Positions 20,659 to 46,500 of a stretch of DNA of 64,000 nucleotides are shown here, piece by piece. The DNA comes from Gemmatimonadetes bacterium T265 (GTDB taxonomy: Bacteria; Gemmatimonadota; Gemmatimonadetes; Gemmatimonadales; Gemmatimonadaceae): assembly GCA_019973575.1 (NCBI GenBank), contig BPUI01000001.1:2678342-2742341 (forward strand). The letters are read 5' to 3'. How positions within the stretch are numbered: the stretch's first letter is position 1; every line of letters starts with the position of its first letter. Made by a program: the position numbers and the translations under genes. The notes beneath the pieces were generated by a model. It did not search any database. It saw only the letters and a list, made by a program, of their open reading frames with translations, and was not told where the DNA came from.

Positions 20659-21189
20659 TCAGTGTGAGGCGAACCGCGTCGTCGCGCCTGCCGGGTCGAA
20701 CGCAAAGACAGTGTACGCCTCCGTGCGGTTCGACTCCATCCCCGGCGACCCCGCGGGCATGCCGGGCACGGCGAGCCCGCGCACGGCGCGTGCGCCGACC
20801 GGCGAGCGGTCGCGCAGCAGCCGGCGCACGTCGGCCGCCGGGACGTGGCCTTCGATCACGTATCCGTTCACCACCGCCGTGTGGCAGGCGTGGAGCGATG
20901 CCGGCACGCCGTAACGCTGCTTGACGGCGTCGAGGTCGGCGACGTCCTGCACCGCGGGGCGGAAGCCGGCCGCGGCCATGTGCGTGACCCACTGCTGACA
21001 GCAGCCGCACAACGGGTCCTTGAACACGGTGATGAGCGTCCGCGCGTCAGGCGCGGGCAGTTCACCGCGGGCGCGAGACGTCAGGGCGCCGAACGCGCGA
21101 CGCGGGAAGACGACAGCGACGACGGCACTCCCGGCCGCGGTGAGCCAGGCGCGACGGGAGAGGACGACGGGGTCACAGGCGGGGATCAT
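20659..21189 (-). CDS. Exported DUF411 metal-binding-type protein
   Basis: A 176-residue protein. The N-terminus has SRRAWLTAAGSAVVAVVF, a twin-arginine-like export signal. The DUF411 domain follows: TVFKDPLCGCCQQWVTHM with the CGCC cysteines, then HACHTAVVNGYVIEGHVPA and GLAVPGMPAGSPGME. DUF411 proteins are often found near copper-handling genes and are thought to bind metal in the periplasm. No copper gene is nearby here. Its ATG lies within the last 17 bases of the pseudouridine synthase gene, so translation is probably coupled. Confidence 0.85.
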   Translation of the reverse strand: MIPACDPVVLSRRAWLTAAGSAVVAVVFPRRAFGALTSRARGELPAPDARTLITVFKDPLCGCCQQWVTHMAAAGFRPAVQDVADLDAVKQRYGVPASLHACHTAVVNGYVIEGHVPAADVRRLLRDRSPVGARAVRGLAVPGMPAGSPGMESNRTEAYTVFAFDPAGATTRFASH

Positions 21190-22042
21190 GACCCGGACGG
21201 TGCCCTACGCCCGCCGCGCGCGCAAGAGCGTCGCGCTCGGCGTCGGCGAGCGGGCGCAGCGCGCCGCGGGCGAGGGACCCCAGGGCGAGCGGGCCGACGG
21301 CCACCCGGATCAGCCGGCGCACCTCGACGTCGGCGGCGGCGAGCATGCGCCGGATGTGCCGGTTTCGGCCCTCGTGCAGGACGAGCTCCAGCCAGCCGCT
21401 CCGGTCGGCCGCGCGCAGCACGCGCGCGGCGGCGGCCGCGAGACGTTCGCCCTCTGGCGTGTCGAGTCCGGCCAGGAGCCGGGCGACGAGGGCGTCGTGG
21501 GGGCGCACGTCGACCTGCACGTGGTACGTCTTGGGCACGTGCGACGACGGCGCGAGGAGCGCGTTTGCCCAGCGCGTGTCGTTCGTGAAGAGGAGCAGCC
21601 CTTCGCTGGCCCGGTCGAGTCGGCCGACGGGAGCGACGAACTCCGCGACGTCGGGCGGCAGCAGGCTGTAGACGCTCGGCGCCCCGCGTTCGTCGACGCG
21701 CGACACCACCACGCCGCGGGGTTTGTGCAGGGCGTAGTAGCGTCGCGTGGCGGCGCGCACGGGCGCGCCGTCGAGCGTGAGGCGGTCGCGGCGCGGATCG
21801 ATGCGGAGGGTCGGGTCGTGCACGAGGCGGCCGTTGACGCGCACGCGCCCGGCCTCGACCCACCGCTCGCCGTCGCGGCGGGAGCCGGCGCCGAGCTTCG
21901 AGAGCGCGCGGGCGACGCCGACGCGGTCCCCATGCGCCGGGTCGGCCGCGGTCCGGGGCGGGCCGCCCGGCGCGTCCCGCCGGTAGCTTTGGGTGTCCGA
22001 GCGCCTGCGTCGCGCCCCGCCGTCCCGCTCCCGATGAGTCAT
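21173..22042 (-). CDS. Pseudouridine synthase, RluB/RsuA family
   Basis: About 289 residues. After a disordered, Arg-rich start comes an S4 RNA-binding domain (ARALSKLGAGSRRDGERWVE then AGRVRVNGRLV), then the catalytic domain with RYYALHKPRGVV and the active-site Asp in PVGRLDRASEGLLLFTND. LHEGRNRHIRRMLAA is the conserved C-terminal motif. It isomerises uridine in rRNA (23S for RluB/E/F, 16S for RsuA); the exact site cannot be told. The only start before the S4 domain is the ATG at 22042, which overlaps the divergent PYP gene start by nine bases. Its 3' end overlaps the DUF411 gene. Confidence 0.87.
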   Translation of the reverse strand: MTHRERDGGARRRRSDTQSYRRDAPGGPPRTAADPAHGDRVGVARALSKLGAGSRRDGERWVEAGRVRVNGRLVHDPTLRIDPRRDRLTLDGAPVRAATRRYYALHKPRGVVVSRVDERGAPSVYSLLPPDVAEFVAPVGRLDRASEGLLLFTNDTRWANALLAPSSHVPKTYHVQVDVRPHDALVARLLAGLDTPEGERLAAAAARVLRAADRSGWLELVLHEGRNRHIRRMLAAADVEVRRLIRVAVGPLALGSLARGALRPLADAERDALARAAGVGHRPGHDPRL

Positions 22043-22501
22043 TCGCCGTCTGATTTGCCGTCCCACACGCCGCCCGCCCCGCCGTCGACCGTGCGCTTCC
22101 CCGTTGATGCGGGCCGAGCGAGCGAGGTGCTCGAGGCCGCCGACGCGATGGCGCCCGAGGAACTCGACGCGCTGCCGTACGGGATGATCCAGCTCGACGC
22201 GTCCGGGCGCATTCTCAAGTACAACGCCGTCGAGTCGCGGCTGGCGTCGCTGCCGCAGGCACAGGCGATCGGGAAGCAGTTCTTCACCGAGGTCGCGCCG
22301 TGTACCAAGGTGCAGCAGTTCTACGGGCGCTTCAAGGACGGCGTGGTGCGCGAGTCGCTCGACGCGACGTTCGAGTTCCACTTCGCGTTCAAGCAGGAGC
22401 CGCGCGACGTTACCGTGCGGCTATTCTACTCGCGGCGGACGCGGAGCGTGTGGGTGATGATCTCGGACCACCAGCGAGTACCCGCGGCCGCGGCGGCGTA
22501 G
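22034..22501 (+). CDS. Photoactive yellow protein homologue (PAS-fold blue-light sensor)
   Basis: A 155-residue protein whose residues 45-150 match photoactive yellow protein along its length: ALPYGMIQLDASGRILKYN, AIGKQFFTEVAPCT, QQFYGRFKDGV and the final strand RSVWVMISD. Key residues are kept: Cys90 in APCT (attachment site of p-coumaric acid, Cys69 in Halorhodospira), Glu67 (Glu46) and Tyr63 (Tyr42). The residues matching Thr50 and Arg52 are Ala and Leu. An extra 40-residue disordered N-terminus replaces the usual cap. No tyrosine ammonia lyase or coumaroyl-CoA ligase gene is in the window. A PAS protein without chromophore is the alternative. Confidence 0.85.
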   Translation: MSHSPSDLPSHTPPAPPSTVRFPVDAGRASEVLEAADAMAPEELDALPYGMIQLDASGRILKYNAVESRLASLPQAQAIGKQFFTEVAPCTKVQQFYGRFKDGVVRESLDATFEFHFAFKQEPRDVTVRLFYSRRTRSVWVMISDHQRVPAAAAA

Positions 22502-22530: not shown

Positions 22531-23643
22531 TCACCACGGTCGCACGGCGTCGGCGACCCGCCCGGCTGCGACGAGTTCGCGCAGTTCGTCGCCTAACGCC
22601 GCGCTCGCCTCCACGACGCGCTGCCACCGGCGCACCCGCTCGGCCTCGGGGAGCGCGTAGAAGTCCTGCCGGTCGGGGATCTTGCCGCCCGGCAGCGAAG
22701 CGACGAACGCCTCGGACGGCGCGATCAGCAGCGCGCGGCGGAAGTTTGCGCGCCCGGCCGCGCCCGTGACGCGGCGCCAGCCGAGCTGGCGGTCGAACCA
22801 CCCCGGCACGAGGTGGGCGTAGAAGTGCGGGTAGAGCACGAGGCCGCCCCCGCCGACCGGGGGCGGGCCGAAGTCGAGGTCGGGGTGGTAGTCGAGGATG
22901 CCGCCGTCCCAGAAGGTGCCCGGGAGTGCGGTGCCGTCCGCGCCCGGGATGCGCACGCCCTCCATGAGCAGCGGGATCGACCCGGACGCCGCGAGCGCGG
23001 GGCGGAGCGTGTCCGCGGTCAGCGCGCGGTGCGCGGTCGGAAGGTCGGCGAGGCCCGCGAACGGCGTCGCGTCTCCCGCGGTGTGGAAGATGACCCGGCG
23101 GAACTGGAGGGCGAGCGAGCGACGCGTGAGCACGTTCGCCGCCGCGGCGAGCCCGAAGCCGGCGAGCAGCGCGCCGCGCCGCGCGCCCGCGGCGAGCCCG
23201 CGCGCCTGGGTCGTGAGCACGTGCAGCCGCGCCCACGGGTGCGCGAGGATTTCGTCCGCGCCGGTCGGGCCTAACAGCCGGTCGAGCGCCGCGCCGAGCA
23301 CGGACGAGACCTCGTGCGGGGTGGCGCGCCGCGACGAGTAGCGCTGCTCGTGCACGTAGTACCGGTGCCCGCGGTCGAGCGCAGCGGCCGGGTCGCGTTG
23401 CGCGAGACACGCCATCCGCCACGAGCCGATCGACGAGCCGATGAGGTGCAGCGGGCGGTCGCGGGACGCACGCAGGAACTCGCCGAACAGGTAGCGATCG
23501 AGCCCCGCGAGGACGAGCCATTTGGCGCCACCGGACGCCGCGGGCAGGACGTCGACGTCCTCCGCGCGGAAGCCCCGCTCGCGGATCAGGGCGAGCGCCT
23601 CGGGACCGGCGCGGAGCACGAGGGCGGAGGGCACACGGTACAA
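22531..23643 (-). CDS. Patatin-like phospholipase family protein
   Basis: A 370-residue serine lipase-type protein. The nucleophile elbow is GSSIGSWRMA (GxSxG), the oxyanion-type Gly-rich stretch is AASGGAKWLVL, and the catalytic Asp is in FWDGGILDYHPD (DGG). No signal peptide is visible, so it is likely cytoplasmic and may act on membrane lipids. The first codon would be TTG at 23643; GTG at 23634 is an equally good start. The next minus-strand gene upstream (DUF4377) ends 42 bases away, so they may be co-transcribed. Confidence 0.85.
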   Translation of the reverse strand: MYRVPSALVLRAGPEALALIRERGFRAEDVDVLPAASGGAKWLVLAGLDRYLFGEFLRASRDRPLHLIGSSIGSWRMACLAQRDPAAALDRGHRYYVHEQRYSSRRATPHEVSSVLGAALDRLLGPTGADEILAHPWARLHVLTTQARGLAAGARRGALLAGFGLAAAANVLTRRSLALQFRRVIFHTAGDATPFAGLADLPTAHRALTADTLRPALAASGSIPLLMEGVRIPGADGTALPGTFWDGGILDYHPDLDFGPPPVGGGGLVLYPHFYAHLVPGWFDRQLGWRRVTGAAGRANFRRALLIAPSEAFVASLPGGKIPDRQDFYALPEAERVRRWQRVVEASAALGDELRELVAAGRVADAVRPW

Positions 23644-43518: not shown

Positions 43519-46500
43519 ATGAACAGAACGTGTAATTGGCGCAGGTGGCGAGCGCTCGCGCCGACTCGTCAGTTTACGGGACGAAGTGAGCGTTGTGCAT
43601 TCATCCCGCCCGCGCGCCCTCCGCCTTCCGCAGTTCCCGCCTACTTGTCGACCCCCGCACGTCGCCTCGGCAGCCCCGTCGTGCTCGCGACCGCGCTCTA
43701 CGTGCTCGTCCACGCCGTGTGGCTCGCCACGCACTGGGGCGGCGCGGCGAACCGCGTGCTCATCGCGGACGCGTTCATCCTCCCGACGTTCTTCGTCACG
43801 GCGATCGCGGCCGGTCGGAACGCGCGCTGCCCGGCCCTCGACCCGCGCGTGCGACGGGCGTGGGCGTGGCTCACGGCGTCGTTCGTCCTGCTCTGGTTCG
43901 CCAACCTCGTGTGGACGTGGCGCGACCTCGTGCCCGACGCGCCGGCGGCGCTCAACACGTGGGGGCGGAACTTCGTCATCCTCTCATACGCGCCGCTGCT
44001 GACCGGATTGCTCGTCTTTCCGAGCGCCCCGCGCACGCGCGCCGACCGCCGCCGGTTCGCCCTCGACGTGGCGACGACCGTGCTCGGCGCCGGGCTCGTG
44101 CTCTGGATCCTCGTCATCGGGCCGGCGACGCTCGAACCGTCGAAGGGCTTCGTCCCCGACCTGCTCGCGCACGCGGCCGCGGTGCTCGACTTCGCCGTCG
44201 TCGCGGTGATCGTCGCCCTCCTGCTCGGCCAGGTCGACGCCGGCAGCCGGCTCGCGCTACGGGTCCTCGCGGCCGGGCAACTCCTCAGCGTCACCGCGGG
44301 CGTCGTCGTCACCGTGCTGAGCCGGACGGGGACCGTCGCGCCCGGCGACTGGGTGGACGGCCTCTGGATGCTCTCCGACGCGCTGATCTTCGTCGCCGCC
44401 GACCTCCAGTACCGCCGCGCGACCGGCGCGGAGTCCAGCACGCCGCGTGTCACGCGGGAGGGCGGCTTCACCCTCCTGCCCTACGCCGGCGTCGCGCTCG
44501 GCTACGCGCTGCTCCTGTTCGTGAGCCGTCCGTGGTGGGGGCAGGCGCTCGGCGTCGTGATCTTCGGGGGCGTCGCGCTGAGCGCGCTCGTTGTCGTCCG
44601 CCAGGTCGCCGCGTTGCGCGAGAACCGCCGGCTCGTCGCCGAGCGCCTCGCCCAGGACGAGTATTTCCGGGGGCTCATCGAGCACGCCTCCGACATCGTC
44701 TACGTCGCCGACGTCGAGGGACGGCTCACGTACGCGAGCCCGTCGGCCGACCGCGCGTTCGGATACCCGCCGCGCTTCGGCATGGGGCGGCCCGGCCTCG
44801 AGTTCGTGCACCCCGATGACGTCGCGCGCGCGCACGCGGCACTGGCGGCGGCCGCGGCGGGCACGCGCTCCGTGGTCGAGTTGCGCGCGCAGCACGCGAG
44901 TGGCCGCTGGGTCGTCATCGAAGTCGCCGTCGGCCCGCTGCCGGGGCGCGAGACGCAGGTCGTGCTCAACGTGCGCGACGTGACCGAGCGCGTCGAGGCC
45001 GCCGCCGCGCTGCGCGAGAGCCAGCGCGCGCTCGAGACGCTCCTCGGCAACCTGCCCGGGATGGCGTACCGCTGCGCGAACACGCCCGAGTGGCCGTTCG
45101 AGTTCGCGAGCGACGGCTGCGCGGCGCTCACGGGGTACGCCGCCGCCCAGCTCACCGCACACGCCGGGGCGCCGCCCCGCGTCTCGTACGGCAGTCTGAT
45201 TCACCCCGACGACCGGGCGCCCATCTGGCACGCGGTGCAGGCGGCGATCGCGGTGCGGCGTCCGTTTCAGCTCGACTACCGCATCACGACGGCGGACGGC
45301 CGCGAGCGCTACGTGTCGGAGCGCGGGCGCGCCGTGTTCGACGAGCACGGGACGTTCCGGGCGCTCGAAGGCTTCGTCATGGACGTCACCGAGCGCACGC
45401 TCATCGAGGTCGAGCGCGCGCGGCTCGTGGCGCAGCGCGACGCCGAGCGCGCGCTGCTCGACGCCGTGCTGGAGCAGATGCCGGCGGCGGTCGTCATCGC
45501 CGAGGCGCCCACGGGGCGGCTCCTCGTCGGGAACGGGCTCGTGGACCGCATCTTCGACGGCGCGCTCGCGCCTGACGACGCCGCGACCCCCGACGGAACG
45601 GTGACGGACGCCTCGGCGGTAGTCGCGTTCCACCCCGACGGGCGGCGCGTGGCGCCGAAGGACTGGCCGCTCGCCCGCGCCGTGGCCGGCGAGCAGGTGT
45701 TGGGCGAGGAGCTGCGCATCGCACGTGCGCGCGACGACGCGGCATGGGTGCGGATCAGCGCCGGCCCGGTGCGCGACCGCGAGGGGCGGATCGTCGCCGG
45801 CGTCGCCGTGGCCGAAGATGTCACGGAGCGCAAGCGACTCGAGTCGCGGCTCGAACACCAGGCATTCCACGACCCGCTCACCGCTCTCGCCAACCGCGCG
45901 CTCTTCCGGGACCGGGTCGCGCACGCGCTCGCGAGCGGGCGCCGCGACCGCACGCGCCCGACGGTGCTCTTCCTCGACCTCGACGACTTCAAGGCCGTCA
46001 ACGACTCGCTCGGCCACGGCGAGGGCGACCGCCTGCTCGTGCAGGTAGCGGCGCGCCTGCTCGACGCGACCCGGGGCTGCGACACGGTCGCGCGCCTCGG
46101 CGGCGACGAATTCGCCGTCCTCCTCGACGCGACGCACGGGCCGGAGGACGCGGTCGTCGTCGCCGAGCGGATCGTCCGCGTGCTGTCGCAGCCGGTCGCG
46201 CTGGCCGCGCGCGAGGTGCTCGTCGGGACGAGCATCGGGATCGCCGCCGCAGAGGCGGAGGACGGCGCCGACGAGCTGCTCCGTAACGCGGACCTCGCGA
46301 TGTACCGCGCGAAGGCGCGCGGCAAGGGCACGTACGAGATCTTCGCCCCCCAGCTCTACGAGGAGATGCACGACCGCGTGGTGCTCGAGGTGGACCTCCG
46401 GCGCGGGCTGGAGCGCGGCGAGTTCTGGCTCGCCTACCAGCCGATCGTCGACCTCGCCTCCGAGCGCGTCGTCGGCGCGGAGGCGTTGGCCCGCTGGACG

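Follow-up and report, generated by a model that had tools for sequence, protein, structure and literature searches.

A photoactive yellow protein in a Gemmatimonadota genome without tyrosine ammonia lyase, and the conserved DNA-damage neighbours of its orthologues

The pyp gene considered here, which lies in a 64,000-nucleotide stretch of the genome of Gemmatimonadetes bacterium T265 (the window), encodes a genuine but ordinary photoactive yellow protein (PYP) from a lineage already known for PYP. What is new are two conserved gene linkages, of pyp to dnaE2 and of pyp to uvsE, and the value of the analysis lies in these and in the genome-wide lack of a tyrosine ammonia lyase (TAL). The window PYP is best explained, and probably correctly so, as a PYP of the working type that carries p-coumarate not made by TAL on Cys90 and passes a blue-light signal to a partner. 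For the clade to which it belongs, gene linkage suggests a role in light-linked DNA-damage tolerance. Features of the locus and two sets of related loci are collected in Table 1.

Table 1. Features of the pyp locus (window coordinates) and sets of related loci. Hhal, Halorhodospira halophila PYP.
Feature	Position or loci	Strand	Remark
S4 + RNA pseudouridylate synthase (RsuA/RluB-type), divergent neighbour	21173..21930 (5' end approximate)	-	PF00849, PF01479
pyp gene	22034..22501	+	155 aa, single-domain photoactive yellow protein, ATG start
Disordered Pro/Ser-rich N-terminal extension, codons 1-24	22034..22105	+	predicted; pLDDT about 40-54
Two N-terminal cap helices, codons 26-45	22109..22168	+	predicted; DSSP on model: 26-36, 41-45
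Tyr63 = Hhal Tyr42	22220..22222	+	alignment to Hhal
Glu67 = Hhal Glu46	22232..22234	+	alignment to Hhal
Cys90 (in APCT) = Hhal Cys69, chromophore-attachment cysteine	22301..22303	+	alignment to Hhal
Patatin-like phospholipase, convergent neighbour	22531..23634	-	PF01734
Cys69-less paralogues	L120, L124, L127, L130-L133, L136, L137, L140, L142-L145
TTCGG-N6-TTCGG intergenic loci	L088, L089, L091, L093-L096, L098, L100, L104, L106, L114, L118

The sole NCBIfam match of the protein is TIGR02373 (E=1.5e-31, 109 bits, residues 31-143), whereas Pfam recognizes it through generic PAS models only (PF00989, 1.6e-7). All confident PDB sequence matches are PYPs or PYP-derived proteins, led by 1mzu (E=9.8e-26), with 1gsx at 2.1e-24, and together with the TIGR02373 match they uphold the first-pass annotation of the gene as a PYP homologue. 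The PYP family has been defined by a PYP-clade PAS domain with a conserved Cys69 (PMC9664959), and the window protein has PYP-specific homology above that to other PAS domains. Its score lies below the curated TIGR02373 cut-off of 143 bits, which is an NCBI equivalog naming threshold and not a defining feature of the family, and which PYPs reach in none of 395 Gemmatimonadota genomes; the model catches about 20% of PYP homologues (PMC9664959). The best PDB match, the PYP domain of Rhodospirillum centenum Ppr, is 43% identical over 114 residues, but Ppr is a multidomain phytochrome-histidine kinase and the window PYP stands alone. Translation might instead begin at a GTG at 22091; the orthologue at L203 likewise has the N-terminus MSHS that the window PYP has when read from the ATG. 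The same first-pass annotation had placed the protein outside the usual hosts of PYP, which does not hold, as Gemmatimonadota PYPs had already been reported by both published surveys (PMC9664959, PMC12826048) and 67 PYPs of at least 70 bits are present in 51 of the 395 sampled genomes of the phylum.

In an AlphaFold2 model built with 34 relatives, the core of the window PYP has pLDDT values above 90. The first 37 places in a structure comparison are taken by solved PYPs or PYP-derived proteins (Z 14.7-18.7, with full-length PYPs at 17-18.7), while other PAS domains reach at most 12.1. It had been proposed that a disordered N-terminus of 40 residues replaces the normal cap. Disorder in the model extends only to about residue 24, through an extension that is weakly conserved among relatives; two helices are predicted beyond it, and when the model is superposed on Hhal, residues 25-146 match 5-125 together with the cap (Z 18.4, 36% identity), so that in the predicted fold the cap has not been replaced. 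Judged from the model, the window PYP and Hhal, both single-domain proteins, are alike in fold and cap and differ by an N-terminal extension of about 20 residues in the former.

The chromophore site is where the first-pass annotation had put it: Tyr63, Glu67 and Cys90 align with residues that the window PYP has in common with the solved Hhal structures (2phy, 1nwz), and an intact site keeps a blue-light sensor plausible. The Thr50 and Arg52 positions of Hhal are occupied by Ala71 and Leu73, and at Hhal positions 94, 98 and 100 the window PYP has Phe, Phe and Gln where Hhal has Tyr, Tyr and Met. That Ala and Leu stand at positions 50 and 52 had been read correctly, but they are not unusual, since both are the consensus residues of the PYP family (PMC12826048), and they therefore do not point to an unusual tuning; for Ala50 PYPs, the absorption measured to date lies at 435-465 nm (PMC12826048). 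In alignment, the Glu46 equivalent is kept in all 67 Gemmatimonadota PYP loci, the Cys69 equivalent without exception in the 31 PYPs of the window's clade and the 8 of a sister-family group, and position 42 in these two groups holds Tyr, or Phe in some, and nothing else. The p-coumarate pocket thus seems to be under selection. The lack of a pigment route combined with an exchangeable cysteine in relatives had been named as grounds for giving up the sensor reading; a TAL route is indeed lacking, but within the window's clade the cysteine never varies, and those grounds do not apply.

The absence of TAL and of a coumaroyl ligase from the window was confirmed, and the genome search that had been called for extends it to the whole genome (5.63 Mb in 6 contigs). 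The single aromatic amino-acid lyase is a HutH (702 bits, cut-off 539) with a Ser-His selectivity motif, and profile searches combined with this motif reveal no TAL in the window or anywhere in the assembly, which is 97.6% complete. The Ser-His motif we take to mark HAL and His-Leu to mark TAL, and from such known lyase specificity HutH was set aside as an unlikely source of p-coumaric acid. No genome-wide match to TIGR02372, the PYP-type 4-coumarate-CoA ligase (pCL), exceeds 63 bits (cut-off 334.7); that best match is C-terminal only, and none extends over a whole protein. The genome's stand-alone acyl-CoA ligases have their best scores with acetate, acetoacetate, MenE and fatty-acid types. 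Side activity of such general ligases on p-coumarate may occur, and broad-specificity lyases or ligases could escape detection by sequence alone. The arrangement differs from the Hhal-type operon, pyp-pCL-TAL, in that the window PYP has neither enzyme beside it and its genome has neither at all. At least one lyase is found in 49 of the 51 PYP-bearing Gemmatimonadota genomes, yet the TAL-type His-Leu motif occurs in only three of the lyases examined by motif (G039, G281, G244), those of about 14 genomes having been classed by score alone. PYP genomes without a recognizable TAL are therefore the rule in this phylum, as far as sequence motifs and scores can tell, and TAL is found in only 5% of pyp operons elsewhere surveyed, where p-coumarate uptake was raised as a possibility (PMC12826048). 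This systematic lack makes chromophore scavenging a testable idea. Two of the three lyases with the TAL-type motif are encoded 2-4 kb from members of a different PYP clade (L112, L097, L085), which shares Tyr98 and Met100 with Hhal; these two of its three members also have small, repeated, alpha-helical-looking neighbours without Pfam match.

On the working-type reading, Cys90 most likely carries a p-coumaroyl thioester, and the cell would probably import the p-coumarate from soil or plant material and activate it with a general acyl-CoA ligase, unless it is obtained by some unrecognised route. By analogy with known PYPs, absorption of blue light would lead to isomerisation of the chromophore, with Glu67 as the proton donor and a loosening of the cap that yields a signalling state. 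As the window PYP has no output domain, it would have to act on a partner protein. Against this reading, the window PYP could stay apo without TAL, and the assembly is incomplete, at the percentage given above. An apo or neofunctionalised protein, one that stays free of p-coumarate and uses Cys90 to sense some other small molecule or redox, is considered unlikely. It would suit a genome without TAL and PYP-type pCL, and redox neofunctionalisation has been proposed for methylobacterial PYPs (PMC9664959); the invariant Cys69 and Glu46 and the restricted position 42 of the orthologues and the sister family are what selection on the pocket would produce, and argue against it. PYPs that do not use p-coumarate do exist in the same family, as shown by a paralogous clade without Cys69, which lends this alternative some weight. 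The clade consists of 14 paralogues from genus g4 (SH-aLRT 99), in which Cys69 is replaced by Ser or Gly and Thr70 by Ala, Glu46 is kept, and the chromophore-gateway position 98 (Hhal numbering) is always Cys; its genes are often divergent from a sodium:solute symporter gene. Loss of Cys69 among Gemmatimonadota PYPs is confined to this one separate clade, and its Cys98-bearing members offer a natural test of pocket re-use.

The PYP signal transduction chain has been described as an important knowledge gap (PMC12826048), and the gene neighbourhoods of the orthologues bear on it. In all 30 orthologues from other Gemmatimonadaceae genomes, which span 8 genera, the gene of the error-prone DNA polymerase DnaE2 is located upstream in divergent orientation, at 111-255 bp from the PYP domain in 27 and at 3.6-4.5 kb in three. 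Two of these pyp-adjacent genes were called as dnaE2 by NF004225 at 1272 and 1231 bits (cut-off 939); a census with this model at E 1e-270 does not serve as a presence/absence table, because the pyp-adjacent DnaE2 proteins match it in two stretches and drop out. Nine orthologues have an ImuB-like gene less than 600 bp away on the other side of pyp, and at these nine loci pyp is therefore antisense between imuB and dnaE2. Relatives that lack pyp and have the clade's dnaE2 lineage show imuB and dnaE2 contiguous or another antisense gene between them. The GTDB named records (L200-L229) repeat the pyp-dnaE2 arrangement and are not independent, since in many cases they come from those very genomes. 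Within a second family of this class, the UV endonuclease gene uvsE (TIGR00629, 155 bits, cut-off 124) lies 3' of pyp on the same strand in 7 of 8 sister-clade PYPs. The main texts of the two published surveys (PMC9664959, PMC12826048) mention neither DNA repair nor a polymerase nor an endonuclease, and a literature search for PYP with dnaE2 gave nothing beyond a review with single mentions of each.

Since the clade is bound to dnaE2 and imuB, and the sister family to uvsE, the ancestral PYP probably fed into a light-linked response to DNA damage or UV. A wider proposal, which is offered tentatively and with some doubt, is that PYP acts as a light input to DNA-damage tolerance in Gemmatimonadota, with blue light standing in for solar UV and tuning mutagenic translesion synthesis by ImuB-DnaE2 in one family and UvsE repair in another; the chromophore would be environmental throughout, and the window PYP would be a member detached when its genome lost or lacked the clade's dnaE2. 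Light control of translesion mutagenesis, if true, would be a new kind of regulation. Divergent genes that share a promoter region can also stay together through chance and descent with no functional tie, and this passive retention remains a strong rival, to which we give appreciable though less than even weight. A single ancestral arrangement would account for every case within the family, PYP lacks a DNA-binding domain, a candidate damage box is on the dnaE2 side of the intergenic region, and the pair was kept despite the wide gap at three loci. Chance and descent fit less well with the PYP tree, on which the other flank of pyp has changed at least nine times and the dnaE2 side once, and with the fixed presence of a different DNA-damage gene, uvsE, in the second family. 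A further point against passive retention is a more distant PYP gene, from an uncultured bacterium (L243, 34-5629), that lies between genes for a PD-(D/E)XK nuclease and a UvrD-type helicase/nuclease; with this exception, DNA-repair neighbours outside Gemmatimonadota were sought by eye among close Acidobacteriota and Myxococcota loci and none was seen. As fixed neighbours of pyp, the dnaE2 cassette in 8 genera of one family and uvsE in another are testable candidates for the output.

The candidate box is a direct repeat, TTCGG-N6-TTCGG (TTCGGTGTATATTCGG). In genus g4 it lies at a distance of 10-48 bp from dnaE2, and in the window's genome it also precedes imuA (L186, about 14034). It is a candidate for the Gemmatimonadota SOS (LexA) box. 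A damage box shared by the window pyp was considered and rejected, the repeat being absent upstream of that gene.

The window PYP is 65-74% identical to its orthologues and branches among the dnaE2-linked ones (support 85, with no starred branch holding it), although its exact place within the clade is unsettled because the tree has too few columns. Compared with Gemmatimonadaceae PYPs that stand head-to-head with dnaE2 (for example L081, L105 and L087), the pocket residues are the same; those genes are transcribed away from dnaE2 and often have imuB further along, whereas the window copy has neither arrangement. No dnaE2 is present in the window region around pyp, and the only DnaE2 of the genome is of another lineage, 45% identical, encoded on a different contig, at C2:868253, in an imuA-imuB-dnaE2 cassette without pyp. 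The window copy is thus the sole one of the 31 orthologues away from dnaE2, in a genome without that dnaE2 lineage, and its lack of a link to dnaE2 or to any signalling gene counts against the working-type reading. The gene might instead be a functionless relic parted from its partner, an idea that draws on this isolation, on neighbours that are unrelated housekeeping genes and on the better-looking signalling context of a second PYP in the genome. Such decay is held to be quite improbable, given an intact frame, the retention of every pocket residue, the identity to the orthologues and a short end branch of 0.21-0.41 changes per column, against 1.76 for the second copy.

The second PYP (L012 9420-9839), 50% identical to the window PYP, has Ser43 in place of Asn43 and lies directly upstream of a PAS-GGDEF-EAL gene (the pair at L012 7661-9839; G000:C1 about 1874160-1876338). 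It resembles the 29 operons of PYP with GGDEF/EAL genes that have been reported (PMC12826048), and so follows a known association of PYP with c-di-GMP; the window PYP has no such neighbour. Beyond the divergent neighbour, positions 20659-21189 of the window (minus strand) encode a small protein with a signal peptide and a CGCC motif that is DUF411-like by eye and has no NCBIfam match. About 23 kb downstream of the window pyp (about 45,600-46,000, plus strand) there is a GGDEF-EAL-type stretch that is 49% identical to the one linked to the second PYP, with a PAS match nearby at G000:C1:2723003.
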